From an uncultured Siphonobacter sp. (GTDB taxonomy: Bacteria; Bacteroidota; Bacteroidia; Cytophagales; Spirosomataceae), in the NCBI GenBank assembly GCA_913775095.1, contig CAJYIW010000024.1, positions 62,001 through 126,000 of the forward strand: 64,000 bases of DNA. Reading direction: 5' to 3'. A program made the translations under genes and the position numbers. Shown piece after piece: positions 23,089 through 64,000 of the stretch (its first letter is position 1; each line of letters opens with the position of its first letter). The notes beneath the pieces are model-generated. The model did no database searches, had not been told where the DNA came from, and worked only from the letters and a program-made list of their open reading frames with translations.

Positions 23089-24240
23089 TTGGATTATTCG
23101 AACCTTTATGAAACAAACCATCGGCTCGGCTGGGTTGATGTATTACGCGTGATGGCCTGTTTTATGGTGGTTGTTTCACACAGCTGCGATCCTTTCGTGG
23201 CTCAGTTTGATCACGACCGGGCATCTTTTCTGACGGGTGTCTTTACCGGAAGTTTCGTTCGTCCCTGCGTGCCTCTGTTTACCATGATGACGGGCGTACT
23301 GCTGCTTCCGGTGAACGTTTCTTTGAAAGAATTTTACCAGAAACGCATTACCCGCATTCTGATCCCGCTGGCTTTCTGGTCGATTGTGCTGCCCCTTCTG
23401 TTTTACATTTACCTGAACTTTATTAATCCCGGCACGACGAATCCCGCCATTACCAAAGCCGATCACACCCTAAACGCTACCCTGACCAAGCTTTACACCT
23501 TCGTTTTCAATTTCAATTACGCCACCACGGCCCTCTGGTATTTATACATGCTGATTGGGCTTTATCTGATCATTCCCATTCTGAGTGTCTGGCTTCGTCA
23601 GGCTTCGCAGCAGGATATCAAACTCTTTCTGAAAGTCTGGGGCGTTTCCCTACTTTTACCTTACCTGAAAATGCTGGCTCCGGCCTTGGGCTATCCCGGT
23701 AACTACGGCAATAAAGGACTTTTCGGCGTTTGCGACTGGAATGATTACGGTACCTTTTATTACGTCTCCGGGTTTATGGGCTATCTGGTCCTGGCGTATT
23801 ACCTGGCCAGATATCCCCTGAACTGGAGCTGGCCTAAGTTATTACGCGTGACCATCCCGATGTTTCTGGTGGGTTATGCCATGACCTGCGGCGAGTATAT
23901 CCTGATGCAAAAGTACTTTCCGGGCAACTACGCGTATCTGGAAATCGTCTGGTATTTCACGGGTATCAATGTCTTCCTGATGACTTTTGCCGTATTCGTC
24001 ATCGTCCAGAAAATGAATAGCAAACCCTCGCCCGTAGTAGCAAAAATAGCCTCGCTTACCTTTGGTATTTACCTCTGCCATTTTGTTTTTGTAGGAGTGG
24101 CGTACGATCTTATCGGCACTATTACGGCGTTACCTTTACTCATTCGAATCATCGGAATCGCCCTTTTAACTTTCGCCATCAGTTATCTCATTGTCCGGGT
24201 GATGGAATCTTTTGCCTGGACCCGCAGATTTGTTCGGTAA
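23089..24240 (+). CDS. Acyltransferase family 3 membrane protein (putative O-acetyltransferase)
   Basis: 383 residues, about ten membrane segments. N-terminal RLGWVDVLRVMACFMVVVSH carries the catalytic His of acyltransferase-3/OafA-type proteins, followed by the loop with RPCVPLFTMMTGVLL. These inner-membrane enzymes transfer acetyl or other acyl groups to surface polysaccharides or lipids. Start choice: no ATG lies upstream of the first membrane helix in this frame; the frame opens with a TTG at 23089 after a stop at 23077, so TTG is the likely start. The gene stands alone, so its target glycan is unknown. Confidence 0.85.
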   Translation: MDYSNLYETNHRLGWVDVLRVMACFMVVVSHSCDPFVAQFDHDRASFLTGVFTGSFVRPCVPLFTMMTGVLLLPVNVSLKEFYQKRITRILIPLAFWSIVLPLLFYIYLNFINPGTTNPAITKADHTLNATLTKLYTFVFNFNYATTALWYLYMLIGLYLIIPILSVWLRQASQQDIKLFLKVWGVSLLLPYLKMLAPALGYPGNYGNKGLFGVCDWNDYGTFYYVSGFMGYLVLAYYLARYPLNWSWPKLLRVTIPMFLVGYAMTCGEYILMQKYFPGNYAYLEIVWYFTGINVFLMTFAVFVIVQKMNSKPSPVVAKIASLTFGIYLCHFVFVGVAYDLIGTITALPLLIRIIGIALLTFAISYLIVRVMESFAWTRRFVR

Positions 24241-24492
24241 TCATCCGGAGAAGCCGAAAGGAGCTTGCCTTTCGCAGGTATCCCGTTTTTTCTTCCGGCA
24301 AACGAAGCTATTTTCAGGCAATTTTGGTGCCGCTTCGGGCGTCTGATGCCAGTTGGGTAATCCGTCATGGAAATTCTTTCGAAAAGGTAAGGCAGTAATT
24401 GGTCACATCGACCGGTTACTATTTTTTATGGCAAATTCACGGCTACCGGCTTACAAAAATTTCTTATACTTTTTTAGTTCATTGGAGATTTA

Positions 24493-24500
24493 TAGATTTG
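24493..24500 (+). promoter_or_regulatory. -7 box TAGATTTG for the DUF1080 gene
   Basis: TAGATTTG matches TAnnTTTG and lies 33 bases before the ATG at 24533, in an AT-rich tract. Confidence 0.5.
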
Positions 24501-24532
24501 AGCCAGTCTAATATAAACATTGATACTTAACC

Positions 24533-25486
24533 ATGTACACCTCTATCCTACGCCGCTTCACGCTGGGAAGCCTGGCTCTGACTTTAGCTTCTTCTTCCGT
24601 TTTTGCCGATGATAAAAACCCCACCGCCAGCTCACTCGAAGGCCGCTGGGATATTTCCGTTCAGTCTGAGGGGAAGACCCTTCCTTCCTGGCTGGAAGTG
24701 ACCCATTCGGGGCATAGTACGCTTGTGGGTCGTTTTGTAGGCAGCAGCGGCAGTGCCCGCCCCATTTCTAAAGTCAATTTTACGGATGGTAAAATCAGTT
24801 TTTCCATTCCTCCACAATGGGAAAAAGCCGATCAGGATTTAGTCGTCAATGGCGTTCTGGAAGGAGATAAACTCAGCGGAACCATGGTAAGTCCCACCGG
24901 AAAAACCCTGACCTGGACGGGCGTACGGGCTCCTTCGCTGGCACAGACGAAAGCCGTGAGCTGGGGAAAAACCATTGATGTGTTTAATGGTAAAGACCTG
25001 AAAGGCTGGCACGCCATGGGCGAGACCAATCAATGGGTCGTGGAAAATGGCGTGTTGAAAAGCCCGAAATCGGGGTCCAATATTCAGACGGATCAGACTT
25101 TTTCGGATTTTAAACTTCACATTGAATTCAAGTATCCGAAAGGCAGCAACAGCGGCGTGTACCTGCGGGGACGCTATGAAGTACAAATCGTGGACAGCAA
25201 AGGTCTGGAGCCGCAAATTGATATGCTCGGGGCGGTGTATGGCTTCCTGACTCCCAACGAACTTCCCGACAATAACGCCGACCAGTGGCAGAGTTACGAC
25301 ATTACCCTGGTGGGGCGTCGGGTTACGGTGGCTCTGAACGGCAAGACCATCATTTGTGACACCACCATTCCGGGTATTACCGGCGGAGCCATTGACAGCA
25401 AAGAAGGCGAACCCGGACCCATTTACCTGCAGGGCGACCACGGCCCGATTGAGTTTCGGAATATTAAGATTACGCTACCGAAGTAA
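24533..25486 (+). CDS. DUF1080 (3-keto-disaccharide hydrolase-like) exported protein
   Basis: 317 residues, signal peptide to about Ala25. Residues about 35-130 form a lipocalin-like beta-region (LEGRWDISVQSEGKTLPSWL); residues about 145-317 are a DUF1080 concanavalin-like domain (DVFNGKDLKGWHAMGETNQW, GSNSGVYLRGRYEVQIVD, GPIYLQGDHGPIEFRNIKI). Some DUF1080 proteins act on 3-keto-glycosides; others are simply carbohydrate-binding. It is a single gene with its own promoter box and a hairpin after the stop. A role in sugar or 3-keto-sugar handling in the periplasm is plausible but not demonstrated by context. Confidence 0.85.
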   Translation: MYTSILRRFTLGSLALTLASSSVFADDKNPTASSLEGRWDISVQSEGKTLPSWLEVTHSGHSTLVGRFVGSSGSARPISKVNFTDGKISFSIPPQWEKADQDLVVNGVLEGDKLSGTMVSPTGKTLTWTGVRAPSLAQTKAVSWGKTIDVFNGKDLKGWHAMGETNQWVVENGVLKSPKSGSNIQTDQTFSDFKLHIEFKYPKGSNSGVYLRGRYEVQIVDSKGLEPQIDMLGAVYGFLTPNELPDNNADQWQSYDITLVGRRVTVALNGKTIICDTTIPGITGGAIDSKEGEPGPIYLQGDHGPIEFRNIKITLPK

Positions 25487-47536: not shown

Positions 47537-48637
47537 CTAGTTCTTAAACTCCTTTTCGCTCTTGCCTACTTCTTTCGAAGTGGCCACGGCAATGCCCCGC
47601 TGGTCTTTTTTGTTGACCGCACAATAGAAATGATACACGATGCCTTTATGCTTGAGAACAAACGACTTATGAGCATATAATTCGTCGTAAGGCTCGGAGG
47701 GTTCGACCAGATTCGGCCCCGTCCAGTCGGTCCAGTGTACTAAGTCTTTCGAGGCCGCGAAACGATTGAACCCTTTGGCTTTCTGATCTTTCCAGAAGGC
47801 TCCGAAATAAAACATCACCCAGGTATCCCCCATTTTTTGCAGCACGGCATCGCCCGTAATGCCTACCGGATGCTGTAAGACGGGTTCGGCCCCGAAGCGT
47901 TTCCAGTGTTCCATGTCATCCGAAACGGCCATGCCGATGCGTTCAAACCAGCGGGTTTTGAGGTTATTCTTTGCGGAATCGCCGTTGGCGTTGTAATACA
48001 TTACAAAGCGGTGTCCGGTGAGCTTCTGCGGGTCTTCGATGACCGAACTTTTGAATAACTTCCGGTTTTCCCACCAGCGGGTATCCGGGTCTTTGGCCGT
48101 AAAAATGGGTTGGGCCGAACGTTGCCATTCATGCACCTGGGTAGGCTCTTTCGTCGTATGAGCCATTCCGATGGATAAATCTCCGGCTTCGTACCCCCGG
48201 GCTCTGCCACCGAAATACGACATCCAGTATTTGTTCTGATAGGGCTTCAGCTCGTAACTGCCGCCCCATTTCGTATCCTGTAAAGCGTTGTAACCTGCTT
48301 TCTGATTGGCATCCCAAAGCGTGGTATCCGAGGAAAACGACATCAGGCGACCTTTCTTTTCCCAGTGTAACAAATCTTTACTTTCCGCCAGCCAGGTTTC
48401 GTAGCCACGCCCGTCGTACAGGAGATAGGTCATGTACCAGTTTTTACCTTTTCGAAACACCGTCGGACAGTCCATCTTTTGGGATTCCTCGTCAGGAATG
48501 ACCACCAGACCGTATTTATGGGGCGTTTTTACTTCTTCGTAGATCTGTTGCATTTCCGAAGAGGAAACATCGGTTTTCTGGGCAAAAACGGAGGTAACCA
48601 GAAGAGAATATAATAGAATCAGAGGCGTACGAATCAT
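47537..48637 (-). CDS. Five-bladed beta-propeller glycoside hydrolase (GH43/GH32/GH137-like)
   Basis: 366 residues, signal peptide to about Ala19. Repeated blades with W/F-Y motifs: DCPTVFRKGKNWYMTYLLYD, LAESKDLLHWEKKGRL, SYELKPYQNKYWMSYFGG, IGMAVSDDMEHWKRFG, GDAVLQKMGDTWVMFYFGAF, ASKDLVHWTDWTGPNL. Acidic residues in DCPTV, SSVIEDP and GITGDAV are candidate catalytic groups. It could be a GH43-type or a GH137-like arabinofuranosidase; the exact family is not resolvable by eye. It starts the unit propeller - GH2 - GH106, with a TAGTTTTG box 43 bases upstream. Confidence 0.75.
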   Translation of the reverse strand: MIRTPLILLYSLLVTSVFAQKTDVSSSEMQQIYEEVKTPHKYGLVVIPDEESQKMDCPTVFRKGKNWYMTYLLYDGRGYETWLAESKDLLHWEKKGRLMSFSSDTTLWDANQKAGYNALQDTKWGGSYELKPYQNKYWMSYFGGRARGYEAGDLSIGMAHTTKEPTQVHEWQRSAQPIFTAKDPDTRWWENRKLFKSSVIEDPQKLTGHRFVMYYNANGDSAKNNLKTRWFERIGMAVSDDMEHWKRFGAEPVLQHPVGITGDAVLQKMGDTWVMFYFGAFWKDQKAKGFNRFAASKDLVHWTDWTGPNLVEPSEPYDELYAHKSFVLKHKGIVYHFYCAVNKKDQRGIAVATSKEVGKSEKEFKN

Positions 48638-50837: not shown

Positions 50838-53603
50838 TCAGTCTATTTTTGAACGGAATTGATAGCTCCCGGACCCTACTTTTATTTTTACTTTTCCTTT
50901 TTCCACCTGTATGTCCTGTAATGCCTTTCCTTCACCTTCTTCGCTTAGAGACGCTGGTAATTGAGTAGGAAAGTAGAGGATAGCCGTCGTATTCGCCGGA
51001 ATTTCTACCCGGAGTTCCAGCGTATCCCCTGACTTTTTCCAGTCGCTGATAATCAGGCCATACGGAGATTCATACGTGGCTTTGGCATGCGTAACCTCTC
51101 CCACCGGTTGGGGTTCAATCACAATTTCCCGGAAGGCTACTGATGATTCCTGTTGCTTAATTCCGGCCAGTCCGGCGTAAAGCCATTCCATCAAATGCCC
51201 AAGCATGAAATGATTATTCGAAGAGGTAGGTAACGCTTCCCAGGATTCCGTTAAGGCCGTGGCTCCCCTCGCAATCTGATAGCCGTACCCCGGCACATCG
51301 CTGCGACTGTTCATGTCAAAAATCAAATCGGAGCGTCCGGCCTCTTCCAGTACCCTCAACAGATAGCGATACCCAATATCCCCCGCAGTCAACCCATTGT
51401 TGCGACTTCTGATGTCTTTGATCAGGTGCTCAAGTACCGCTGGTTTGTCTGCCTCGTTCACCAGTTTCATGTAAACGGCCATCGCGTTAGCCGTCTGACT
51501 ATTGGTGGCGTATTGTTTGGTTTTTGAATTAAAAAAGGCTTCGTTAAACGCCTGCTTTACCTGCTCAGCCAGGGTCTTGTATTCTTCTGCATCTTTCGGT
51601 TTGTTCAGCAACCGGGCCACTTCCTGAAGAACTGTTAAATCGTAATAATACATCGCCGTTCCGGTCACACCCATGGGAGTGAGCTGAGACGTTCCCGGCG
51701 GTTTAGGTCCCAGATCGTACCAGTCGCCTAAGCCCTGGGAAAGAATGTGATTGTTTGCTTTCGTGCCTAAATACTGGACGTACCGCCGCATCATGGGGTA
51801 ACTGGACGCCAGCTCGTTTTTCTCGCCGTACCACTGATACAGATACCAGGGCACCAGCACGGCACTGCTGCCCCACTCGGGCGAGTCCCGGAAGATGCCG
51901 TCCCCCCAGTGAAATTCAACGTATTCTGGAGCGATTTCGGGAATGAGTCCGTTTTCCAGCTGTGAATCTTTCATGTCCTGAATGGACTTTTTCAGCAGCG
52001 GAGCAATGTCGTACGGATACCGAACCGAGCTTCCCATGAGGTGCACCTGCTCCAGCCAGCCCAGCTTTTCCCGGTGCGGGCAATCCGTAAACACGCTGGC
52101 CATATTACTTTTTATGGCCCAGTCAATCAGCGTATGCGTTTGATTCAACAGCGTATTCGAGCTACTAAAACTGCCCGTCCGGGGAGCAACGTTTCGGGTA
52201 TGCAAGCCCCGCAGTTCCAGAATTTCGGGCTGCTTACCGGGGTTGCTTTCTTTCGCGGGAACGCCGCCCCGCACCTGCAGGTAACGGAAGCCATAATACG
52301 TAAATCGGGGCTGCCAGGTCTCAATTCCCTGACCTTTCAAAATGTATTCGAAGTAATACGGCCCGCCCGTCGTTCGCTGGGTAATTACGCCGTCTTTCAA
52401 TAATTCAGCGGGGTAAATCCGAACGGTATCACCTTTGTTGCCTTTGACTTTCAGATAAATAATACCCGAAAAATTCTGTCCGAGATCATATAACCATTCA
52501 CCGGAAGTCGTTTTTCTGATCGATTTAGCCTGAAAAACTTCAGCTATTTTGAGGGGTTCCTGCATCTGAGAAACCAAGGCTGGCGAACCCGTTACCAACA
52601 ACGGTTTTTTCCAGGCAGCGTCATTAAAACCCGCACTATCCCAGCCCGTTTGTTCCAGTCGGGCGTCGTAGTTTTCGCCGCCGTAAATACTGGAGAAGGT
52701 AATCGGTGAGGGAGCCGTTCTCCAGGAATCATTGGTTACGAGATCTTCAGAAGTGCCGTCCTGGTATTCCAGATGCAGGCGACCGATGAGCCTGGGGTAC
52801 CCAAACTGAACTTTCAGTTTCCGGAAACGTCCTTTCACCGGAGGGATGTAATAAAAGCCATTGCCCAGCATGACTCCGACCACATTTTCACCTTTCACTA
52901 ACTGATTGGTAATATTAAAAGTGACGTACTGAACCTCTTTGTCATATTTAGTCCAGCCCGGATCGAGGAAGTGATCGCCGACTTTCTGGCCGTTCAGACT
53001 CATTTCAAAATGGCCTAATCCTGATACGTAAGCCGTGGCTTTCCGGATGGGTTTTCGAAGAATAAAGCTTTTGCGAAACTGGGGTAAGATATTACTGCCC
53101 AGCACCTTGTCTTTCACGTCGTCGCGGGGTAAGGGATTAACCAGCGAATCGGCCAGTTTTTCGTACGCGATCCACCGACTGCCTTTCCAATCGGCGGGAG
53201 TTAACAAACCCATTTGCCAGAACGCCGGGGCACTCCATAGGGAAACATGATTCTGATTATCCCAGATTTTCACTTTCCAGTAATACGACCGGGTAGATTG
53301 CAGGGCTTTTCCGCGATAACTGATTTGCAGGGAAGAATCGGAGGTTACCTTTCCCGAATCCCAGTAATTCCCCTGATTTCTTCCTAAGGCTTCTTCCGAG
53401 TCTGCTACCAGAATCTGGTAGGCCTGCTGCCGAACATTGCGTGCCTCCGAAAGAATCTGCCAGCTTAATGCCGGATTTCTGTTCTCAACCCCCAATGGCT
53501 CGGTTCGGTATTCGCAACGCAGGTTCACAACCCGCAGGGATTGGGCGGACAGTGGAAGGTATATCAAAGAAAACAGTACTGATATCAAGAGCAATAGACG
53601 CAT
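50838..53603 (-). CDS. GH78 alpha-L-rhamnosidase
   Basis: 921 residues, signal peptide to about Ala20. Domains: an N-terminal fibronectin-like module (about 22-135, LRCEYRTEPLGVENRNPALS), two beta-sandwich domains (175-470, VSGLGHFEMSLNGQKVGDHF), then the six-hairpin barrel with TDCPHREKLGWLEQ (506-519), the conserved acidic block that contains the catalytic acid, and a C-terminal beta-domain. GH78 releases terminal alpha-L-rhamnose with inversion. It is the last gene of the unit starting with the 717-residue GH78-like protein, closed by a terminator. Full length for the multi-domain type. Confidence 0.92.
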   Translation of the reverse strand: MRLLLLISVLFSLIYLPLSAQSLRVVNLRCEYRTEPLGVENRNPALSWQILSEARNVRQQAYQILVADSEEALGRNQGNYWDSGKVTSDSSLQISYRGKALQSTRSYYWKVKIWDNQNHVSLWSAPAFWQMGLLTPADWKGSRWIAYEKLADSLVNPLPRDDVKDKVLGSNILPQFRKSFILRKPIRKATAYVSGLGHFEMSLNGQKVGDHFLDPGWTKYDKEVQYVTFNITNQLVKGENVVGVMLGNGFYYIPPVKGRFRKLKVQFGYPRLIGRLHLEYQDGTSEDLVTNDSWRTAPSPITFSSIYGGENYDARLEQTGWDSAGFNDAAWKKPLLVTGSPALVSQMQEPLKIAEVFQAKSIRKTTSGEWLYDLGQNFSGIIYLKVKGNKGDTVRIYPAELLKDGVITQRTTGGPYYFEYILKGQGIETWQPRFTYYGFRYLQVRGGVPAKESNPGKQPEILELRGLHTRNVAPRTGSFSSSNTLLNQTHTLIDWAIKSNMASVFTDCPHREKLGWLEQVHLMGSSVRYPYDIAPLLKKSIQDMKDSQLENGLIPEIAPEYVEFHWGDGIFRDSPEWGSSAVLVPWYLYQWYGEKNELASSYPMMRRYVQYLGTKANNHILSQGLGDWYDLGPKPPGTSQLTPMGVTGTAMYYYDLTVLQEVARLLNKPKDAEEYKTLAEQVKQAFNEAFFNSKTKQYATNSQTANAMAVYMKLVNEADKPAVLEHLIKDIRSRNNGLTAGDIGYRYLLRVLEEAGRSDLIFDMNSRSDVPGYGYQIARGATALTESWEALPTSSNNHFMLGHLMEWLYAGLAGIKQQESSVAFREIVIEPQPVGEVTHAKATYESPYGLIISDWKKSGDTLELRVEIPANTTAILYFPTQLPASLSEEGEGKALQDIQVEKGKVKIKVGSGSYQFRSKID

Positions 53604-53621
53604 AGAAAAGCCTTACTTTCA

Positions 53622-53645
53622 TTTTACTCAATACGTTGAGTAAAA
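53622..53645. promoter_or_regulatory. 10-bp-arm inverted repeat upstream of GH78
   Basis: TTTTACTCAA TACG TTGAGTAAAA at 53622-53645, 18 bases before the GH78 ATG; a further CAACGTATT at about 53652 complements part of it. It could be an operator or a leader hairpin. Confidence 0.45.
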
Positions 53646-53692
53646 CACCACAACGTATTAATCAAAATCATAAATAACTAACAACCAGAAAC

Positions 53693-55846
53693 TTACAACG
53701 AATAACTAACCACATAGCTCTTTCCTTTCTCAATCGTCAGTTCATACACGCCCGCACTGCCCGAGCGGATGTCTCCCTGCTTACTGGAAGGCTTCTTCCT
53801 GCTTTTGAAGCGAAGCGTTCCCGTTCCGGCGGCTCCGGTTACCCTGATTTCTTTGGTACTGCAATACACCTGAATTTCGCCCTGAGCCGTAGGCACCTTG
53901 CCTTCCATCCACTGCAAACCACCCAGATTGGGTTCGATGGTGTAAGTTTCGTAATTCGGAGTCGTGGGTTTCACGCCGATGTAATACTTGCCCAGCAGGT
54001 AAATCGGACTTGCTCCCCAGGCGTGGCAAAGGCTCTTACCAAACTCCCGACCGTACATGGCATAATGCTCGGCTCCTTTTTTGGAGGGGTTGAATTCTTC
54101 CCAGAAAGAGGTGGCCCCGAGCTTGAGCATGCCGCCCCAGTACGCTTTCATTTCCTGCGTTACGTAGGCCTGCTCACCTAAGGCACACAGAGCTTCGAGT
54201 TCGTAAAAACGCATGTAAGGCGTCGTGATTTTCGGCACTTGGCTGTTGAGTAATACCTTTTGCTTCACGCCCTGTTTCTGAGCGTCATTCAGGTAATCAA
54301 AGAACACGGCGAACATGTTGGCATACCTCGTGACGTGTTGCGTAGGCACGCCATCGACCCGACTGTGCACAAACGCCTGCTTTTCAGCGTTCCAGTAGTA
54401 TTCGAAAAGTTTACCTTTTACTTCTTTGGCGAGCTGGTTATACTGTGAAACATCGGCAGTATTATTGACGATTCCGGCACAGAGAGCCATCGTTTCCAGG
54501 CTCCGGGCGAAGAGTAACTGTTCAAAACTAACTTCTCCTTTCTTGCTCAGGCCTTCGGCCCAGTCGATGAACACCCAGTCACCCGACAGCCCTTCGAGTA
54601 AACCGTTTTTATTGCGGCGACCCAGGCAGTAGTCCATCAGGCTTTTCATGCGGGGATAGAATTGCTGAATGAAGGTTTTATCACCCGTAAACTGGTAATA
54701 ATCGTAGATGCTGATGAACCAGTAAAAGGTATAATCCATGATGGTATTAACGTGAGCCGTGACGGGATCTTTCCCCCGTAAATTCAGCATGGTACGGGTC
54801 ACTGAAGGCGAATCGAAGAACGAGTAATAATTCATCAGGTAACTCTGGGATGCATCCCCCGACCAGACCCAGCGGTCGCGTTTGATACCGTCGATGAAAA
54901 ACTCCCGCGTGTTCAGATGCAGCGTATAGAGAGCCACGTCGTAGATTTTATTAATCTCTTCGTCCGAACACCGGAAACTGCCGCGGTTGGTCACGGGCAG
55001 GAATTCATACAACATCGAAGCTCCGTCGAGGCTGGTACTCCCCTCCAGCTGCACGTTTACGAAACGGAATGCTTTGGTTAATTCCATGACCGAATCCTTC
55101 TTCGCCGACTCAGAAATATCAAGTTCATCCGTCGTCTCGCAGGTTTCCGTCGCCAGAGCTTCTTCTTTTGATTCTCCGTAATAGATTTTCACTTTTCCTG
55201 TTCCGGTTAGCCCTTTCAGTTTCAGGAACCCAAAGGTTTCTTTGCCGAAATCCAGAAAGAGGGATTTGGCCTGTTTATCAGCGGCCACGGGGTTTTCTTC
55301 TCTCGTATTTAGTCTGAATTGCGAAGGAAGGGAACGCGGGTCGTTGAAATTCCAGGAGCCCGCCTGTAACCAGGTCGTCCCCGACTGATCGGAAGCTTTG
55401 CCCGTTTCATCAATCCATTCCTTATCTTCAAAGGTAACCAGCCAGGAAGCATCCGAATGAATGGTTTTTCCGCGAACAAAAATGGCCGGAACATGGGCCT
55501 GATTGAAGACTTTCAAACTCAGCTTGTGCTTACCTGCCGGAACGGTCACTCGTTTGGGGTAGCCCGAAAAGGGTTTCCCATCAATCTTGACGTTGTATTG
55601 ACCTTCCACGAAAATTTCCACTTCCTCAGGCTGAGTCAGGGTGAATTCTTTGTGAAAATCCATGAGGTTATAGTGGCTGTCGAGCTTCCAGAAGGGCGGC
55701 ATAAACGTGCCCCGTTCCGTGCGACGGTTCTGCATCTGGTTACCCAGCCAGATTTCGTAATCACCCGGATACCAGATCCAGGTGGCCTGAGCGAAGGCTG
55801 AAAAATTCATTAATAACAGGCTCAAAAAGAGGAGGTTTCTTTTCAT
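53693..55846 (-). CDS. GH78-like alpha-L-rhamnosidase (six-hairpin)
   Basis: 717 residues, signal peptide to about Ala19. N-terminal beta-sandwich (ATWIWYPGDYEIWLGNQMQN) followed at about 290 by the alpha/alpha barrel: IYDVALYTLHLNTREFFIDG then IKRDRWVWSGDASQSYLMNY, which replaces the DCPxR block of standard GH78 but keeps an acidic Asp-Arg-x-x-W-x-GD arrangement. GDWVFIDWAEG and SFWEEFNP line the active site. Shorter than the neighbouring GH78 and lacking its fibronectin module; a related Bacteroidota subgroup annotated as alpha-rhamnosidase. First gene of the GH78 unit after SSS symporter, 90 bases before the next. Confidence 0.8.
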   Translation of the reverse strand: MKRNLLFLSLLLMNFSAFAQATWIWYPGDYEIWLGNQMQNRRTERGTFMPPFWKLDSHYNLMDFHKEFTLTQPEEVEIFVEGQYNVKIDGKPFSGYPKRVTVPAGKHKLSLKVFNQAHVPAIFVRGKTIHSDASWLVTFEDKEWIDETGKASDQSGTTWLQAGSWNFNDPRSLPSQFRLNTREENPVAADKQAKSLFLDFGKETFGFLKLKGLTGTGKVKIYYGESKEEALATETCETTDELDISESAKKDSVMELTKAFRFVNVQLEGSTSLDGASMLYEFLPVTNRGSFRCSDEEINKIYDVALYTLHLNTREFFIDGIKRDRWVWSGDASQSYLMNYYSFFDSPSVTRTMLNLRGKDPVTAHVNTIMDYTFYWFISIYDYYQFTGDKTFIQQFYPRMKSLMDYCLGRRNKNGLLEGLSGDWVFIDWAEGLSKKGEVSFEQLLFARSLETMALCAGIVNNTADVSQYNQLAKEVKGKLFEYYWNAEKQAFVHSRVDGVPTQHVTRYANMFAVFFDYLNDAQKQGVKQKVLLNSQVPKITTPYMRFYELEALCALGEQAYVTQEMKAYWGGMLKLGATSFWEEFNPSKKGAEHYAMYGREFGKSLCHAWGASPIYLLGKYYIGVKPTTPNYETYTIEPNLGGLQWMEGKVPTAQGEIQVYCSTKEIRVTGAAGTGTLRFKSRKKPSSKQGDIRSGSAGVYELTIEKGKSYVVSYSL

Positions 55847-56134: not shown

Positions 56135-57712
56135 TTACCTGAACAGGAGGTATAAGCTCAGCATCGTAATCGTTAAGGCAATCCAGGCAGTCCAGACGTT
56201 TCGTGTAGGTTTAATGATTACCTGCCTGGTATCAACCTGATAAATGATTGGGTTTCGATCCAGTAAGGAGAGGATGACGGCTACCAGCATTAAGAATGCA
56301 AAAATCAGGAAGGACAAAATCAGGTAATGTGGCCAGAAATCATAGCGGTCGGGGGGAAATACCCACAAATACACGACGCCCAGACCCAGACTGAACACCG
56401 AACCGAATGATAAAATCGCGTTAACGGCCAGTCGGGTGGTGCCTTTCCAGAATACGGTTAACAAAAACACCACGGATAAGGGCGGAGCAATGAAGCCTAA
56501 GACCGATTGAAATACATCGAAGAGGTTCAGCCCTTTAATGCTGTCAATGGCCAGAGCCATGCCTACGGCAAATACGCAACCCGCAATGACGGTCAGTCGC
56601 CCGACCCGAATGAGGTCTTTGTTGGTAGCCGAAGGGTTAATTTTTCGGGCGTAAACGTCCATCGTGAAAACGGTACTCAGCGAGTTCAGCGATGAACCAA
56701 TCGTTCCCACCAACACTGCGATTAATACAACAATGACCAGTCCATTCAGTCCCGGAGGAAACAGATTCGTCACCATCGTCATATAAGCTTCCGCCGGATC
56801 GCTCAGGTTGGGAAAGAGGATGTAACAGAGAATGCCCGGAAGAATAAACAGCGGCAGCGAAAGGATCTTCAGCCAGCCAATAAAGTTGACCCCGAGTTGT
56901 CCCTGTTCCAGATTTTTAGCTCCCAGGACGGATTGCACCATGGCCTGATCGGTACAGAAAAAGGCAATGGCCGCTACGGGATACCCTAACAGAATGGCGT
57001 ACCAGGGATATTTTGGATCGTCAGCCGGGTGAATCAGGCTCCAGTAATCGGCAGGAGCTTTGGCGAGTACGGCTTCCATCCCTCCTACTTTCTGAATCCC
57101 TAAAATCGTCAGCGTTAAGGATACGCCAATGAGCAGAAGCATCTGAAAAACGTTCACGCGGGCAATGGCTTTGAGGCCGCCCGTATACGCAAATAACCCG
57201 GCGAAGGCCACCAGGACCACTACTGACGTACTCATCGGAATGCCCAGAATCTGCCGTACCAGAAAACCTCCGGCAAACAACCCCAGCGACAACCAGGAAA
57301 TCAGGATTTTGATCAGGGCGTACCAGGCCAGAATCGTTTGCGTAGACTCTCCGTATCGCTGCCCCATGAATTCGGGCATGGTGCTAACATTCGCCGCCAG
57401 GTATTTAGGAGCGAAAACAATAGCCAGCAGGAATAGAAACACGAAGGCGTACCAATCAAAATTGATGGCAACGATCCCCGTACTGTATCCGATACTGGCA
57501 AATGCCAGCAGCATCGACGGCCCCACGTTAGTTCCCCACATGTTGAAGCCGATACTCGCCCAGCCCAGCGATTTATTAGCCAGAAAAAGAGTCTCCTCAT
57601 CCGCCGATTTCTTCGTCACACTGGCCCTGAAACCAATAAAAGCCAGAATCAGCACATAGGCCGCGACGATGGCGTAATCCAGCAGGGTTAAACGGTCAAT
57701 GATGTTATTCAT
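56135..57712 (-). CDS. Sodium:solute symporter (SSS family), second copy
   Basis: 525 residues, about 13-14 membrane helices. N-terminal LLDYAIVAAYVLILAFIGFR, then DEETLFLANKSLGWASIGFN, and the middle GTIGSSLNSLSTVFTMDVYA are SSS hallmarks, with sodium-site-like Ser/Asn residues. It belongs to the SGLT-like branch that carries sugars. Inner membrane. Placed between the Gfo/Idh gene upstream and rhamnosidases downstream, it probably imports L-rhamnose or another released monosaccharide; the cargo is inference. Different in sequence from the symporter at 3311, so two separate cargoes are likely. Confidence 0.88.
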   Translation of the reverse strand: MNNIIDRLTLLDYAIVAAYVLILAFIGFRASVTKKSADEETLFLANKSLGWASIGFNMWGTNVGPSMLLAFASIGYSTGIVAINFDWYAFVFLFLLAIVFAPKYLAANVSTMPEFMGQRYGESTQTILAWYALIKILISWLSLGLFAGGFLVRQILGIPMSTSVVVLVAFAGLFAYTGGLKAIARVNVFQMLLLIGVSLTLTILGIQKVGGMEAVLAKAPADYWSLIHPADDPKYPWYAILLGYPVAAIAFFCTDQAMVQSVLGAKNLEQGQLGVNFIGWLKILSLPLFILPGILCYILFPNLSDPAEAYMTMVTNLFPPGLNGLVIVVLIAVLVGTIGSSLNSLSTVFTMDVYARKINPSATNKDLIRVGRLTVIAGCVFAVGMALAIDSIKGLNLFDVFQSVLGFIAPPLSVVFLLTVFWKGTTRLAVNAILSFGSVFSLGLGVVYLWVFPPDRYDFWPHYLILSFLIFAFLMLVAVILSLLDRNPIIYQVDTRQVIIKPTRNVWTAWIALTITMLSLYLLFR

Positions 57713-57756: not shown

Positions 57757-58830
57757 TTATAGTAGGTTAGTTAATCCGTGAGCTTCCAGTAAGGCCTTGA
57801 TTTTAACCGGCTGCCCCGTTTGCAGGGACTGATCCATGGCCTGAAGCAGAGCTACGGTACCAATTCCTTCTTTCACGTCAGGAAACGCCGTTTCACCGCT
57901 TTCCAGACAGTCAGCAAAGTATTCGAGGTAATTCTGGTACTCCCCGGCATGATGGCTTTTCCCCTCGAAACGGAAGTAATGTTTCAGCTTATGCTCCCAG
58001 GTCATGATGCGTTCTTCACCGGTTTTGTCGGTAATGGCGTAACGCAAATCCATGTAATCGCCCTGGCTACATCCTTCCGTCCCGCGAAGGATACAACTCA
58101 TTTCGCTGTCGCGGGTGACGGGCTGCACGGGGCCGGTGTAAGCTCCACTGACGCGGGCAATGCGGCCGTCGGTTGCTTTGAAGATGAAGTGCATGGTATC
58201 GGCATTTTTCAGGCCGCCGTTTTTACCATTGGAACTTAACATGCCGTATCCCATTACCTCTTCAATATTGGGCAGATACCAGCGGATGAAATCCACGGGG
58301 TGACTCAGACCGCCGTATAACCATTTGAAGGCATTTTCGAGAGACCAGCCTTTGTCCAGAAACCAGCGGTGATCGGCGTGGTAATAACTTTCGATGGTAA
58401 TCAGCTCCCCAATGAGTCCGGCTTCGTAATCGGCCCGCTGTTTTTTCATAGGTTCAAAAAAACGGGAGCTTTGTCCGATAAACACCTTCTTACCCGTCTG
58501 TTCACTCAGCTCGATCAGTTCTTTCGCTTTGGATAAATCGTCGATGAAGGGTTTCGTACAAATCACGTGTTTACCGTGGAGCAGGGCTTGTTTGGTATGC
58601 TCGGCGTGGAATTTATCGGGCGTATAAATGGCGATGGCGTCGATGGAAGGATCGTCCAGTAACTCCTGGTAATTAGTCGTATACGAATGATAATCAAATT
58701 CTTTGGCCCGTTGCTGACACAGTTCCAGTTTCTGATCACAGACTTTTACGAGTTCAATTTTCTGACTTTGAATGGCGGCTGACATCGTACTCCGGCCCTC
58801 GCCTAATCCTAAAATTCCTAGCTTTAACAT
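57757..58830 (-). CDS. Gfo/Idh/MocA family oxidoreductase
   Basis: 357 residues, no signal peptide, so cytoplasmic. N-terminal Rossmann fold LKLGILGLGEGRSTMSAAI, then IDAIAIYTPDKFHAEHTKQA and HGKHVICTKPFIDD (the EKP motif of the family appears as TKP), and the C-terminal alpha/beta-domain with GGLSHPVDFIRWYLP. Such NAD(P)-dependent enzymes oxidise sugars or sugar alcohols, for example inositol, rhamnose or uronate derivatives. Upstream of the SSS symporter in the same unit, it is a plausible first cytoplasmic step on the imported sugar; substrate unknown. Confidence 0.85.
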   Translation of the reverse strand: MLKLGILGLGEGRSTMSAAIQSQKIELVKVCDQKLELCQQRAKEFDYHSYTTNYQELLDDPSIDAIAIYTPDKFHAEHTKQALLHGKHVICTKPFIDDLSKAKELIELSEQTGKKVFIGQSSRFFEPMKKQRADYEAGLIGELITIESYYHADHRWFLDKGWSLENAFKWLYGGLSHPVDFIRWYLPNIEEVMGYGMLSSNGKNGGLKNADTMHFIFKATDGRIARVSGAYTGPVQPVTRDSEMSCILRGTEGCSQGDYMDLRYAITDKTGEERIMTWEHKLKHYFRFEGKSHHAGEYQNYLEYFADCLESGETAFPDVKEGIGTVALLQAMDQSLQTGQPVKIKALLEAHGLTNLL

Positions 58831-58960: not shown

Positions 58961-59016
58961 GTAAGGAGTACTTCTTGCTGCCAGCTTTTCCGCTGGCAGC
59001 AAGAAGTACTCCTTAC
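58961..59016. repeat. 25-bp perfect inverted repeat overlapping a stop codon
   Basis: 58961-58985 is the exact complement of 58992-59016 with a 6-base loop (TTTTCC); the core is GCTGCCAGC/GCTGGCAGC. Arm 2 includes the stop codon (59013-59015) of the beta-helix/RhaM gene. It directly joins the palindrome at 58928-58960, giving two adjacent hairpins. Confidence 0.9.
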
Positions 59017-61523
59017 TTCAATTCCACCCAGACCTCTCCCGCTTTCGTTCCCGGAATGCCTTCCTGATATTTCTTCATTCGCTGATTCCATTCCACTACT
59101 CTCGGATTATTTTCTACCGTTTTCGGATCCAGTTTTTCCAGACTTTCTCCTTTCGGTATGCTGATGACCAGCATCAGCTGACGACCGTTTCTGAACAAAA
59201 GCAATTGTTGAAAACTGGCGTTACAGAAACCTTTGGAGACTTCGGGCCATTTTTCAAGCTGCGTGGCGTGGTAGTCCATGTATTCCCGCTGAAGTTTGGG
59301 ATCGGCTACCAGATTAGCCGTCAGAACCGTATGCTCCCATTCTTTCGCTTCGGCGGTATCGTCACACTTTTTACGATTGAATTCGTAGAATAAATCATCG
59401 TAGGTTTTGATCTGAACGCCGGGGAAGGCCGATTTCAGTCGCTCCCGCAGCAGATACACATCCTGCACTTTATCAAAAATGACGTAATGATTTTCCCAGC
59501 GATGCAGGGCCTTTTCGGATACGTTTCCCTTCGTTAGTACCGCCCGTAACTTCTCTTCGTGCAGCGGCTGGGAAGTAATCAACTCCACGATTACGGGTTT
59601 CTCGACGTTAATCTGCCAGTAGGTATCTGGTTTGGAATTATACTTCAGCAAATGACGATACCCGGCTTCCAGCCCCGCCCGGTTTTTGATGCTGTCAGCT
59701 ACGCCGGGACCGTTATTCGTCCAGACGTTGTTCGGTCCGTTGGCGTTTTGCAGGTATTTTTCCGAGGGCGTCCAGTTGTCCCGTATCGTGAAATACGATG
59801 AGCCTTCATCCGTATAGAGGTAAAACCAGTGCTGCGGAATGTGGGCATACGGAGCCTTATAAATGCTGTCGATTTTGTTCTCAATAATCTGCGAACCGGG
59901 CTGAGCCGAAAGCGTATACACGGCCGCCACATCGTACATGTGTTTGCCGTAATGATGGATTTTATTGGCCCGTATCAGGTTGTTACGCATCACACTGATG
60001 GTACGAGTCCACCCCCAGCCCAGGCTGATTCCGCTGTAGCCAACTTCGTTGATTTCGTTGTGCTCGACGGTCAGCTCCCGAACAAAGCCCGCTCCGATTC
60101 CAACGCAGCCCCAGTCTTCGTTGGTCACATTGGTAATGAGGTTATTACGAATGGTCAGACCACTACAAACCTCCCGGTCGTCTTTCGGCTGATACGGCAA
60201 ATGAGCTTCGATGGATTCATCGGAGAACACGCCCGCCTGAATGCCCGTACCGCCAATGTCTTTAAAAAGGTTACCAATGATCTGGTTGTCCTGAACGCCC
60301 CGGTGATAATCGAGGCCAGTAGACGCCAAATGCTCAAAACGACAGTTTTCAAAGCCCGTATGGTTGGCATACGAAACTTCTACGGCTCCCGTCGGTCGAC
60401 CCACCCAGGCCTGGTTTTCCAGTGTTTTTTTATCGGGTGTACCGGGAATTTTCAGCTTATACGCATCAAGCATATACAAACCCGCCTGATGCGGCACGTG
60501 TCCTTCGCGGGAAGGCCGGAGCCAGCCTGCGTGCTCGAAAGAAATGCCTTTGAAATGCACCTGTGATACGGGTCGATCCATTGTACCCGTCATCCGAACC
60601 AGCGTTTCCAGATACGGAGCCATTACTTCCGCCTGGCTCAGGTTCTCCCCTGCTTTGGGGTAATAATACAGTTTTTGTGTATTCGTATCGAGGAACCATT
60701 CACCGGGCTCGTCGAGCAACTGAATGGCGTTGGTCAGGTAGTACGCCGAATTGCCCGTTTCCTTCGAAATCCACGGAGCGGGCCAGGGATGTTCCGACTG
60801 AATACGGCTTTCAGGCTGGTGGAAATACACTTTGGCACTGTCGCCCTGAATTTCCAGTTTTTTCACCCGAAGATTAGCCACCGCCCACCACTGATGAATG
60901 AAAAATTCGAGTCCGGTTGCCTGTGATAAATCGCCGAATTTCGGAGCGGGAATCCAGCAGGTTTGTTCGGATTTGTTCCAGGATAAAATTCGGTTCATTT
61001 TCGAATACGGCGTATCCTTGGCTCGTACGGCTTTTTCGCCGTTCACCCACAATTGCCGGAATTCGAACGGTCGACCGCCCACTAATGGAACATTCGTTAC
61101 CCAGACTTTCCCTGCCACTGCTCTGGGTAATCCTGATACTGAACCTTTGAGTTGCTGCCAGCCCGTGATGGCCACGCCACCACTCAGGACGGAGCGTTCC
61201 TGCGGAGCCGATTGAATGACGGTTGGACTAGCCTCCGTACCCGAATCTTCCGGACGAATCCAAACGGTTTCTTCCAGGAAATACCTACCTCCGGCCAGGA
61301 AAATATTCGCTCCCTGCGTTACTGAGGGATCGGACAGCCGTCGCCATTCACGTACCTTCCGCAAGGCCATAGGCAGGCTGGCCAGCGGTTTGTCTTTCGT
61401 ACCGGGGTTCGCATCCGAGCCTTGTTTCGAAACCCAGATTTCTGCTTTTTGGGCGAAAAGGGAGGTCGAGCAAAGGCCTAAGGCAAGCAGGATGTACGCT
61501 AGTTTATTCATTGCATTCATCAA
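59013..61523 (-). CDS. GH141-like right-handed beta-helix protein fused to L-rhamnose mutarotase-like domain
   Basis: 836 residues, signal peptide to about Ala24. Residues about 28-640 form a right-handed beta-helix of GH141 style (IWVSKQGSDANPGTKDKPLA, SGLDYHRG-like STGLDYHRGV, GYSGISLGWGWTRTISVMRN, AVYTLSAQPGSQIIENKID). Residues about 731-836 resemble RhaM, the rhamnose mutarotase: REYMDYHATQLEKWPEVSKG matches E. coli RhaM around its catalytic His, followed by QLMLVISIPKGESLEKLD and NPRVVEWNQRM; residues 643-730 may be a second, degenerate copy of the same ferredoxin-like fold. GH141 members are alpha-L-fucosidases or xylanases. Fusion of a hydrolase with a mutarotase for rhamnose is unusual. 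Confidence 0.8.
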   Translation of the reverse strand: MMNAMNKLAYILLALGLCSTSLFAQKAEIWVSKQGSDANPGTKDKPLASLPMALRKVREWRRLSDPSVTQGANIFLAGGRYFLEETVWIRPEDSGTEASPTVIQSAPQERSVLSGGVAITGWQQLKGSVSGLPRAVAGKVWVTNVPLVGGRPFEFRQLWVNGEKAVRAKDTPYSKMNRILSWNKSEQTCWIPAPKFGDLSQATGLEFFIHQWWAVANLRVKKLEIQGDSAKVYFHQPESRIQSEHPWPAPWISKETGNSAYYLTNAIQLLDEPGEWFLDTNTQKLYYYPKAGENLSQAEVMAPYLETLVRMTGTMDRPVSQVHFKGISFEHAGWLRPSREGHVPHQAGLYMLDAYKLKIPGTPDKKTLENQAWVGRPTGAVEVSYANHTGFENCRFEHLASTGLDYHRGVQDNQIIGNLFKDIGGTGIQAGVFSDESIEAHLPYQPKDDREVCSGLTIRNNLITNVTNEDWGCVGIGAGFVRELTVEHNEINEVGYSGISLGWGWTRTISVMRNNLIRANKIHHYGKHMYDVAAVYTLSAQPGSQIIENKIDSIYKAPYAHIPQHWFYLYTDEGSSYFTIRDNWTPSEKYLQNANGPNNVWTNNGPGVADSIKNRAGLEAGYRHLLKYNSKPDTYWQINVEKPVIVELITSQPLHEEKLRAVLTKGNVSEKALHRWENHYVIFDKVQDVYLLRERLKSAFPGVQIKTYDDLFYEFNRKKCDDTAEAKEWEHTVLTANLVADPKLQREYMDYHATQLEKWPEVSKGFCNASFQQLLLFRNGRQLMLVISIPKGESLEKLDPKTVENNPRVVEWNQRMKKYQEGIPGTKAGEVWVELK

Positions 61524-61582: not shown

Positions 61583-62473
61583 TCAAGCCTGAAAAATGGA
61601 TTTCAGGTACTTTGTGTTGGCACTGAAATTCTTTTTGACGTTCCGGGGATCGCTGGCGTCGCGGGAGCGTTCGATGACCAGCCAGCCTTTCCAGTCCATG
61701 TCGTCGAGCGTCTGTTTGACTTTTTTCAGGTCCATCCGCTTGTTATTTTCCAGCCATACGCCGTCTTCATCGGTCGCGTGAATCATACAGATCCGTTTTT
61801 TACCGAGGATGCGGAGTTCTTCGTGCAGATCCCGACCGTTTTTGAGGGGATTGGAGAAGTTGAAATAGCTTTGAATGTGTTTAGAACCGATGTCGTTCAG
61901 TAAGGCCACTTCGCCTTTGGCATCCAGGGCTGTTTCGATCCCAATGACGACTCCGGCTTTTTTCGCCATTTTACCCACCACTTTCAACCGCTCCACGATG
62001 GCCGGACGTAACTCCGGATTTTTCACCAGATCCCCCTGCGTACCGAGGGGCAGAAACCCGACTTTTACGTTCATGGCTTTCATCGTATCGATGCAGTCCT
62101 GCACCATTCGTTCGTAGGTTGCCCGCGTAGCAAAACTTTGGGCGTAGAATCCGCTCATGGCAAGCGAACAGATTTCCAGATTCAGTTCTTTGGCTTTATC
62201 CAGAAATTGCTGACGGATTTCGGGTTTGGCTAACTGACTGTCGAAGGTCTCACGGTTACCCAGTCCGCCCATGTCTACTTCCAGTCCGTCGGCTCCAATT
62301 TCTTTGGTTAATTGAAACGCACTCAGCTTCTGCCGTTTGAGAATCATCAGATCCACTACGGCAATTTTATAGGCCTGTTTATCCTTCGCAAACACCTCAA
62401 AAGGCGAGCTATATAATGCAGCCGACAGAAATACCGACTGACCCAGAAACTGACGACGATTGATGTTTTTCAT
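61583..62473 (-). CDS. Tat-exported sugar phosphate isomerase/epimerase-type TIM barrel protein
   Basis: 296 residues. The N-terminus NINRRQFLGQSVFLSAALYS has the twin-arginine motif R-R-x-F-L, so export through Tat is predicted. The rest is a xylose-isomerase-like TIM barrel: EIGADGLEVDMGGLGNRETF, VIGIETALDAKGEVALLND, SYFNFSNPLKNGRDLHEELR, CMIHATDEDG and MDWKGWLVIERSRD, with metal-binding-type Glu/His/Asp positions. Activity on a free sugar such as rhamnose/rhamnulose or a keto-sugar in the periplasm is inferred; its substrate is unknown. It follows the STN-esterase gene and precedes the beta-helix/RhaM gene on the minus strand. Confidence 0.82.
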   Translation of the reverse strand: MKNINRRQFLGQSVFLSAALYSSPFEVFAKDKQAYKIAVVDLMILKRQKLSAFQLTKEIGADGLEVDMGGLGNRETFDSQLAKPEIRQQFLDKAKELNLEICSLAMSGFYAQSFATRATYERMVQDCIDTMKAMNVKVGFLPLGTQGDLVKNPELRPAIVERLKVVGKMAKKAGVVIGIETALDAKGEVALLNDIGSKHIQSYFNFSNPLKNGRDLHEELRILGKKRICMIHATDEDGVWLENNKRMDLKKVKQTLDDMDWKGWLVIERSRDASDPRNVKKNFSANTKYLKSIFQA

Positions 62474-62510
62474 AGAATTCCTATTACTTTTTTGATTATC
62501 CGAAGAATTA

Positions 62511-62542
62511 CCTTCCCGAAAGTTTTAAAACTTTCGGGAAGG
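62511..62542. repeat. Perfect 32-base palindrome of the CCCGAAAGTTT family
   Basis: CCTTCCCGAAAGTTTT and its exact complement, no loop, between the esterase stop and the TIM-barrel start. The least decayed member of the family. Confidence 0.85.
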
Positions 62543-62566
62543 TGTCAGGTCGTATGACTCCACTGA

Positions 62567-63943
62567 TTAATGAATCATTTTCTCCAGTTCCTCAAAGCTC
62601 CGAATCGCGTTTTCTGGCAGGTTTTCGCCTTTTTCTCCGAACACATACATCGCCGGATATTTTTCTACGGTGCACTTGGATTCATCAAACTGACCGGAAG
62701 CATTCTGCCCTTTTTTCGCATCCAGTTTAAACTGTTCAACTAAGAACTGATACAAAGCCAACCGTTTATTAATGCCGTAATCGTGGCCTTCCTGCGATAA
62801 ATGCACGTTTTTGATGACGGCTGCTGAGCCGTAAAAGCCATAGGTCCGTTGCAGAAAAGGAAACTCCTGCTCGGGGACGTATTGGGTCCAGTCTTTGCCG
62901 TCGGAGATGACCAGTTGCGGGCGGGGAGCTGCCATGGCGGCCATCTCTACATTGTTGGTTCCGTGACCACACAAATGCACGCCCATCCCACTCTCGCAGG
63001 GGCAACCGCCGCTGTGGTACGAAGAAGTCATGACTACCGGAACGCTTAGATCTATACGATCATCCAGAGCCGTCAGCAGCATCGTCTGGCTTCCGCCCCC
63101 CGAACCACCCGTTACAGCCACGCGATGGGGGTCAGCGTTTTTCTGGGTTAACAGCCAGTCGAGAATCCGCATGCCGTTTACAATCTGGATGGTATTGGCC
63201 AGACTCCGGCGGTGATCCGCCGACTGAAATTGTAGCAGGGATTCTCCCCAGGCAAACAGATCGTAGCTAAAAGCCATGGCTCCCATCCGGGCCTGCATGG
63301 CACAACGCAACTGCGAGTCCTTCCGGTAGCGACCATCGCCAAAGTGCCCGTCGGGATTAAGGATGACGGGCATCAATCCTTTAGTATTCGTGGGTTTATA
63401 CAATGATCCACACACGTACACGCCGGGTAAGGTTTCAATGGCTACATTTTCCACCGTATAACCATCAAACGTGCGTTTGTTGGTAAGGATCGGCTGACTA
63501 TTCGGCGAGGCCGGAAGCTGATCGATTTTCAGCGTTTTCCGCATGCAGGCTTTAAGTTCGGCTTTTCGTTTTTCCCAGCTGGCCTGATCCGTATACAACG
63601 AAGCCAGGTAATCCAGCTGCTGCTTGCCTTCTTTGGGTGTTTTCAGGTGATACTGAAAGGCCTGGAGCTTGTATTTATGATCGCCTTCTTTGGTGAACGT
63701 GATGTCCTGCGAAGCAAAGATATTCGACATCGTTTGCTCCACGTCAGGACGGAAACGCCATTCGGCATAGGTAATCTGACGATCTTTTACCAGCTCTTCG
63801 GGATATCGGATCTTTACGGAATACTGCGTTTCAATTTCCTGAATGATGTCTTTCAGGGGCTTTTTAAACGCATCATCCGAGTTTTGGGCGAATGCCTGCG
63901 AGCCCATCAACAATGAAAGAGCGATCTGGACCAGTGGTTTCAT
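62567..63943 (-). CDS. STN domain fused to an alpha/beta-hydrolase (putative carbohydrate acetylesterase)
   Basis: About 458 residues from ATG 63943 (MKPLVQIALSLLMGSQAFAQ is a signal peptide; the frame stays open 9 codons further). Residues about 22-95 resemble the STN (secretin/TonB N-terminal) domain: KPLKDIIQEIETQYSVKIRY then two further strand pairs and FASQDITFTKEGDHKYKLQ. The C-terminal alpha/beta-hydrolase has the nucleophile elbow GGSGGGSQT, a His in LSQEGHDYG and a Cys-rich loop GGCPCESGMGVHLCGHG. A sugar-ester hydrolase such as a pectin acetyl-esterase is the best guess by context. STN domains normally occur on receptors or sigma regulators, so this fusion is odd. Confidence 0.75.
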   Translation of the reverse strand: MKPLVQIALSLLMGSQAFAQNSDDAFKKPLKDIIQEIETQYSVKIRYPEELVKDRQITYAEWRFRPDVEQTMSNIFASQDITFTKEGDHKYKLQAFQYHLKTPKEGKQQLDYLASLYTDQASWEKRKAELKACMRKTLKIDQLPASPNSQPILTNKRTFDGYTVENVAIETLPGVYVCGSLYKPTNTKGLMPVILNPDGHFGDGRYRKDSQLRCAMQARMGAMAFSYDLFAWGESLLQFQSADHRRSLANTIQIVNGMRILDWLLTQKNADPHRVAVTGGSGGGSQTMLLTALDDRIDLSVPVVMTSSYHSGGCPCESGMGVHLCGHGTNNVEMAAMAAPRPQLVISDGKDWTQYVPEQEFPFLQRTYGFYGSAAVIKNVHLSQEGHDYGINKRLALYQFLVEQFKLDAKKGQNASGQFDESKCTVEKYPAMYVFGEKGENLPENAIRSFEELEKMIH

Positions 63944-64000
63944 AGGCTTAAAGGAGATAGTTTCAACCATCGGGCGAATTAACCGTCCGTTCGGTCTTTC

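Follow-up and report, generated by a model that had tools for sequence, protein, structure and literature searches.

Rhamnogalacturonan II (RG-II) is a very complex plant pectin. According to passages of PMC10154630 and PMC12786026, the GH141 enzyme BT1002 of Bacteroides thetaiotaomicron (BT_1002; Protein Data Bank (PDB) entry 5mqp) releases 2-O-Me-D-Xyl-alpha-1,3-L-Fuc from RG-II chain A. For sialic acid (Neu5Ac), passages of PMC10017367, PMC10942642, and PMC5931594 report that periplasmic NanM speeds the alpha to beta conversion, a proposed aid to uptake, and that the SSS-family transporter SiaT binds the beta-anomer. Here we describe a gene that joins a BT_1002-like hydrolase and a mutarotase-family domain in one chain, located at 59013-61523 (minus strand) of a 64,000-nucleotide stretch (the window) of contig CAJYIW010000024.1 from an uncultured Siphonobacter sp. 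What is new is its tail module of ~198 amino acids (aa), which recurs across Bacteroidota, fused or separate, and co-occurs with genes for a Gfo/Idh/MocA oxidoreductase (Gfo/Idh) and an SSS-family Na+/solute symporter (SSS). No description of a GH141-mutarotase fusion was found in titles, abstract starts, or passages of PMC12282258, PMC12786026, and PMC8857213, nor, among open papers, any of uptake of the methylxylosyl-fucose fragment of RG-II.

We favor, with slightly more confidence than doubt, the view that a secreted alpha-L-fucosidase acting on RG-II chain A carries its own mutarotase, which would feed one anomer to the SSS symporter. This view builds on which families the two domains belong to, on each of them having kept its putative active-site residues, and on the module recurring and being found together with Gfo/Idh and SSS. 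In the proposed mechanism, the GH141 part would cut off a fucose-ended product in one anomeric form (by analogy with BT1002, 2-O-Me-D-Xyl-alpha-1,3-L-Fuc), and the tail module, with two ferredoxin-like halves and a Tyr-His site in the second, would equilibrate the anomers at the reducing-end L-fucose in the periplasm. The symporter would then import the anomer it is presumed to prefer, and the Gfo/Idh enzyme would process the imported sugar in the cytoplasm, presumably by oxidation. The likeness to NanM lies in the logic only, in that a glycosidase product would be brought to the anomer taken by a Na+-coupled transporter; NanM stands alone as a beta-propeller protein, whereas here a RhaM-type domain is mostly fused to the hydrolase. 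If the proposal is true, anomer control would be a selected step of glycan uptake and the NanM principle of sialic acid uptake would also hold for sugars of the plant cell wall. The outcome is a short list of proteins for experimenters to test.

Domains and putative active-site residues of the fusion protein

The gene and its parts are as follows:

59013-61523, minus strand: GH141-mutarotase fusion gene, 836 aa as an open reading frame (ORF), likely start ATG at 61511
59646-61448, minus strand: GH141 domain of BT_1002 type, residues 26-626 (phmmer and model)
59931-59933, minus strand: putative catalytic Asp531
59808-59810, minus strand: putative catalytic Asp572
59376-59600, minus strand: first half of the tail module, residues 642-716 (ferredoxin-like in the model; RhaM sequence kinship undetected)
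59019-59339, minus strand: second half of the tail module, residues 729-835, RhaM family PF05336 (Pfam, hhalign, fold)
59280-59282, minus strand: invariant Tyr748
59268-59270, minus strand: invariant His752
59364-59366 and 59223-59225, minus strand: Cys720 and Cys767, an invariant pair spanning 59223-59366

An earlier sequence-only reading of this DNA had given the ORF these coordinates, correctly, and had described a secreted, GH141-like beta-helix enzyme that would release L-rhamnose and mutarotate it with a C-terminal RhaM-family domain. Translation probably begins at the ATG at 61511 (residue 5) rather than at the ORF start, because the Siphonobacter homologue in locus L095 (89% match) begins at that Met. 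The predicted secretion agrees with a signal-like N-terminus, judged by eye. Pfam placed GH141_M at residues 138-290 (E=1.3e-72) and also matched the right-handed Beta_helix family (E=1.1e-10), with no match of the ORF to NCBIfam profiles. Residues 26-626 aligned by phmmer with chain positions 24-623 of the 624 residues of BT_1002 in 5mqp (E=3.4e-222). An AlphaFold model of residues 24-836 (pLDDT 88.6, pTM 0.84) superposed on 5mqp with a TM score of 0.96 at 1.6 Å and 54% identity over 610 alignment columns, in agreement with its parallel beta-helix fold, so that the GH141-like helix of the sequence-only reading was borne out. The likeness thus covers the whole beta-helix enzyme with its insertion domain, and both putative catalytic Asp residues are kept; the difference is that the solved chain ends before the tail module. 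Natural ORFs of GH141 without the module have 617 aa (genome G238) and 693 aa (G166).

Asp531 and Asp572 were invariant in all 42 alignment rows. They would correspond to the essential pair D523/D564 of BT1002, since both pairs are spaced 41 residues apart; this mapping uses a presumed offset of 5 between the BT1002 numbering and the 5mqp chain index. The GH141 part is of BT_1002 type, with alpha-L-fucosidase activity on RG-II chain A as its predicted function. An assembly or frame artefact behind the fusion was ruled out because the fusion recurs in 23 other genomes and in 62 of 80 loci, the latter being the best 80 of 265 candidates from a search of genome contigs (in one of the 62, L128, the GH141 part is broken).

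The C-terminal RhaM-family domain was likewise confirmed. Pfam rhaM (PF05336) matched residues 738-835 (E=5.5e-10; 39.8 bits against a cut-off of 23.4), and hhalign matched the second half of the module to the RhaM family with a probability of 99.3% (E=7e-21, 101 columns). Residues 643-730 had been read as a possible second, decayed RhaM copy. The model of the tail module indeed has a ferredoxin-like half here, but kinship was not significant by hhalign, either with the second half (probability 0.1%) or with 37 stand-alone RhaM-type proteins (10%). Modeled alone from 50 sequences, residues 627-836 formed two ferredoxin-like halves (pLDDT 89.9, pTM 0.85). Foldseek put two-domain monooxygenase-like proteins on top (3mcs, HmoB 4fvc, 9ltx), which aligned over most of the module; these alignments are loose (query TM 0.43-0.49, rmsd about 5-7 Å; for 3mcs, TM 0.45 and 7.3 Å) and imply no common function. 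The highest RhaM-family match was the L-fucose mutarotase 7byu (rank 5, E=6.6e-4, target TM 0.76, 2.9 Å), the only structure of that family among the 50 matches listed. A weak match of the module alone to calmodulin in the PDB (E=0.097) was disregarded.

In an alignment of 50 modules (that of the window and those of 49 of the 80 loci), Tyr748, His752, Trp812, Met816, Gln820, Trp832, Cys720, and Cys767 were invariant, and the first six of these were also kept in 36/36 stand-alone Bacteroidota relatives. Tyr748 and His752 correspond in the alignment to E. coli RhaM Tyr18 and His22 (Tyr-x3-His), which we take to be active-site residues; His752 is the residue that the sequence-only reading had aligned by eye with the catalytic His. 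Cys720 and Cys767 possibly form a disulfide in the secreted module. With FucM (7byu/7byw) and E. coli RhaM (1x8d), the module shares the fold, the Tyr-His pair, the Trp-Pro of a WPE motif, and a Trp in the last helix; the following Met is kept in the module and RhaM and is Cys in 7byu. Unlike these proteins, it has a signal-like N-terminus, a ferredoxin-like half in the same chain, the invariant Cys pair, and a 3-residue insertion before WPE, and it lacks the second Tyr.

The RhaM part was also the best conserved. Among 23 relatives, identity to the window was 61-94% for the RhaM part, 56-84% for GH141, and 27-83% for the first half of the module; the RhaM part was more identical than GH141 in 21 (exceptions L089 and L077) and more identical than the first half in all 23. 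The dN/dS values for RhaM and GH141 were 0.039 and 0.088 with L078, and 0.026 and 0.070 with L079, while those for L080 and L081 are not comparable because of saturation. For the first half, dN/dS was 0.182 in the only pair computable.

Recurrence of the module and its partner genes

Two genes downstream of the fusion belong to the conserved unit, among them the symporter that had been noted two genes away:

57757-58830, minus strand: Gfo/Idh/MocA oxidoreductase, conserved partner
56135-57712, minus strand: SSS-family Na+/solute symporter, conserved partner

We searched a phylum sample of 296 genomes and a sample of 149 relatives, with the own genome counted in both. The module occurred in 12 phylum genomes (46-58% identity, the window itself excepted), and 31 further genomes matched only by stand-alone RhaM-type proteins or weak pieces. 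Exactly the same 12 genomes held the Gfo/Idh orthologue (at least 69% identity; one additional match, in G093, had 39%) and the SSS symporter, and BT_1002-like GH141_M (>200 bits) was found in 14. Among the 149 relatives the module was present in 13, and Gfo/Idh in 12 of those 13 and in no other. The closest solved relatives of the Gfo/Idh protein are DgpA-type proteins (E=1.5e-17), which do not pin its function.

Of the 80 loci, 75 have Gfo/Idh downstream of the module and in the same orientation (70 of them within 400 bases), and 69 have SSS downstream. Of the 11 loci without SSS, four (L095, L113, L135, L151) end <1.8 kb past the module, two (L106, L130) have none despite enough sequence, and the remaining five belong to the Arcicella/Flectobacillus branch, in which five genomes encode the symporter (75-79% identity) at a site apart from the module. 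One record, L140, is titled Williamsia sp., an actinomycete, and holds a GH141-module locus of Bacteroidota type; it is probably a mislabelled metagenome-assembled genome (MAG).

The module was fused to GH141 in 62/80 loci and was a separate ORF in 18. Thirteen of these 18 ORFs start -53 to +4 bases from the GH141 stop codon, seven of them with a 4-base overlap. The separate modules are apparently secreted, as judged by eye, and 10/18 have a lipobox-like pattern (a pattern of our own). The five that do not lie at a GH141 stop codon comprise two from genomes with a 55% identical GH141 elsewhere, one from G684 with GH141 matches of only 30-32%, one from a 2.0-Mb genome with none, and L164, with GH141 ~8 kb downstream. 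In L133, L137, and L144, the fetched stretch groups the module with Gfo/Idh and SSS but contains no GH141; two of these genomes have the 55% GH141 elsewhere, and in the third the matches reach only 30-32%. On the module tree the fused or separate state changed ~4 times (bootstrap 3-5), and the well supported branches also permit one change.

In Bacteroidales, the order of G238, the module was found in 3/247 genomes, as a separate ORF each time and with no Gfo/Idh beside it in the fetched stretches. Genome-wide, G499 and G654 have Gfo/Idh (75% and 78%) next to SSS (61% and 57%), on the contig of their own GH141. For Dysgonomonas sp. 511 (G455, the source of L164), SSS was found at 52% and Gfo/Idh was not found genome-wide.

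Candidate sugars and alternative explanations

The sugar was approached through a tree of the RhaM family with 54 rows (13 of the 50 modules, 37 stand-alone proteins, and four PDB references), the bootstrap of which had not settled. One side (99/97) holds E. coli RhaM, RhaU, 6hhn, 7byu, and L002, a stand-alone mutarotase of the own genome; the other holds the modules and the remaining 36 stand-alone proteins. L002 adjoins an L-rhamnose isomerase gene, so that this genome has a rhamnose mutarotase at another site. On the side of the modules, L003 is the immediate neighbor of a GH29 alpha-L-fucosidase gene, and further along the stretch there is an aldo/keto reductase gene. The L-fucose mutarotase 7byu sits on a long branch beside the RhaM references, yet it is the top RhaM-family fold match, and it has in common with the module a C-terminal Q...GE.W that is not in the RhaM references. 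Because 7byu is long-branched and not grouped with the module, the assignment to fucose rests mainly on the GH141 partner.

The L-rhamnose substrate of the sequence-only reading fared differently from its domain assignments. The Pfam family name rhaM and the GH78-type genes nearby would suit it, but the hydrolase is 54% identical to an alpha-L-fucosidase over the 610 columns noted above, and the module falls outside the clade of L-rhamnose mutarotases (E. coli RhaM, RhaU, 6hhn) in which L002, beside its isomerase gene, is grouped. We therefore rejected L-rhamnose as the substrate on both counts and regard an enzyme that releases and mutarotates it as very improbable. A rather unlikely alternative, to which we give somewhat more room, is a non-catalytic module for sugar capture or for docking GH141 to the symporter or the outer membrane. 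The long branch, the loss of the second Tyr, the extra first half without detectable RhaM kinship, and the lipobox-like pattern in 10/18 separate modules would fit such a role; it is difficult to reconcile with Tyr748, His752, and four further shared residues being invariant in 50/50 modules, and with the RhaM half being the most conserved part in 21/23 comparisons. Less doubtful than this, although we still think it improbable, is an active mutarotase whose main client would be some other sugar of RG-II that Gfo/Idh and SSS handle, for instance a methylated one, D-apiose, or L-rhamnose, with the fusion to GH141 only holding the module at the same site and in the same amount. The module tracks Gfo/Idh and SSS more tightly than GH141 (12/12/12 against 14 of 296), L133, L137, and L144 combine the three genes without GH141 in the fetched stretch, and 50/80 loci have a homologue of the GH78 gene at 53693-55846. 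Against it stand the 62/80 modules fused to GH141 and 13 more directly behind it, which link the module strongly to the enzyme presumed to release fucose, and the position of the domain outside the L-rhamnose mutarotase clade.

Several observations also weigh against the fucosidase with its own mutarotase that we prefer. At 2.8 changes per site, the branch leading to the modules is long, and 7byu falls outside it. Where RhaM and 7byu have their second Tyr (Tyr41 in E. coli, presumably in the active site), 49/50 modules have Leu; this loss is tempered by the same position being non-Tyr in 36/36 stand-alone Bacteroidota relatives. With L082, dN/dS was slightly higher for RhaM (0.068) than for GH141 (0.060). 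Two of the 14 BT_1002-like GH141 genes occur without the module (G238 and G166), and the 12 genomes with module, Gfo/Idh, and SSS are not independent because they span only six genera. By genome-wide search, G376 has the fusion without Gfo/Idh or SSS, and G455 and G685 have the module without Gfo/Idh; G684 keeps module, Gfo/Idh, and SSS with its distant GH141 matches.

A more specific route within the fucosidase-mutarotase proposal is tentative. The mutarotase would act on the reducing end of 2-O-methyl-D-xylosyl-alpha-1,3-L-fucose, SSS would be an anomer-selective disaccharide symporter, and Gfo/Idh would be an NAD-dependent glycosidase; we consider this combination possible, with doubt prevailing. 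The disaccharide as the imported sugar is hinted at because GH31 takes the Gfo/Idh slot in two Dysgonomonadaceae. In the loci without Gfo/Idh, L151 and L164, a GH31 gene comes after the module, on its strand and no more than 75 bases away; the two proteins are 71% identical over the 205 aa still held by L151, and this GH31 has no visible signal peptide. A cytosolic alpha-xylosidase (GH31) together with O-demethylation would fit 2-O-Me-Xyl-Fuc, a hint from one full and one cut-off locus. Of note, the RG-II cluster of Dysgonomonas sp. 511 (L164 8674-16150, also L221) contains an apiosidase (PF13204), GH31, SSS, and GH141, together with a B12-binding corrinoid protein, a URO-D methyltransferase, and a protein with a match to a B12 activation domain. 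This corrinoid set is a candidate for O-demethylation of RG-II methyl sugars; up to E=1e-20, it has no homologues in the remaining 79 loci that were fetched. In L151 (30-4639, a Dysgonomonadaceae MAG), genes resembling Fe-type alcohol dehydrogenase, PdxA, and D-threonate kinase stand directly before the module, and GH31 after it.

Surroundings in the window

By its gene content the window is an RG-II locus. It holds an alpha-D-galacturonidase above cut-off (NF049878) and genes of GH106, GH95, GH127, GH28, and two of GH78 type. Features of the surroundings, with their coordinates, are:

53693-55846 and 50838-53603 (together 50838-55846), minus strand: two GH78-type alpha-L-rhamnosidase genes, downstream of the fusion
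61583-62473, minus strand: xylose-isomerase-like TIM barrel, upstream of the fusion
62567-63970, minus strand: esterase-like protein, upstream of the fusion
47537-48637: GH137 part of NF049877 (profile 2-358)
5138-8551: GH2 part of NF049877 (profile 366-1400)

NF049877 is a 1400-position model of a B. thetaiotaomicron GH2/GH137 beta-glucuronidase/beta-L-arabinofuranosidase that is matched here by two genes 39 kb apart, both scoring below its whole-protein cut-off. The TIM-barrel protein of the pair at 61583-63970 has, by eye, a twin-arginine-like N-terminus, and homologues of it and of the esterase-like protein occur in 28 and 32 of the 80 module loci, respectively. On the plus strand, an acyltransferase gene is followed by a PF06439 3-keto-disaccharide hydrolase (23089-25486), and a DUF5703_N protein is encoded inside the RG-II cluster at 17885-20206. 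A homologue of the latter (64%) also lies near the module-less GH141 of L214.

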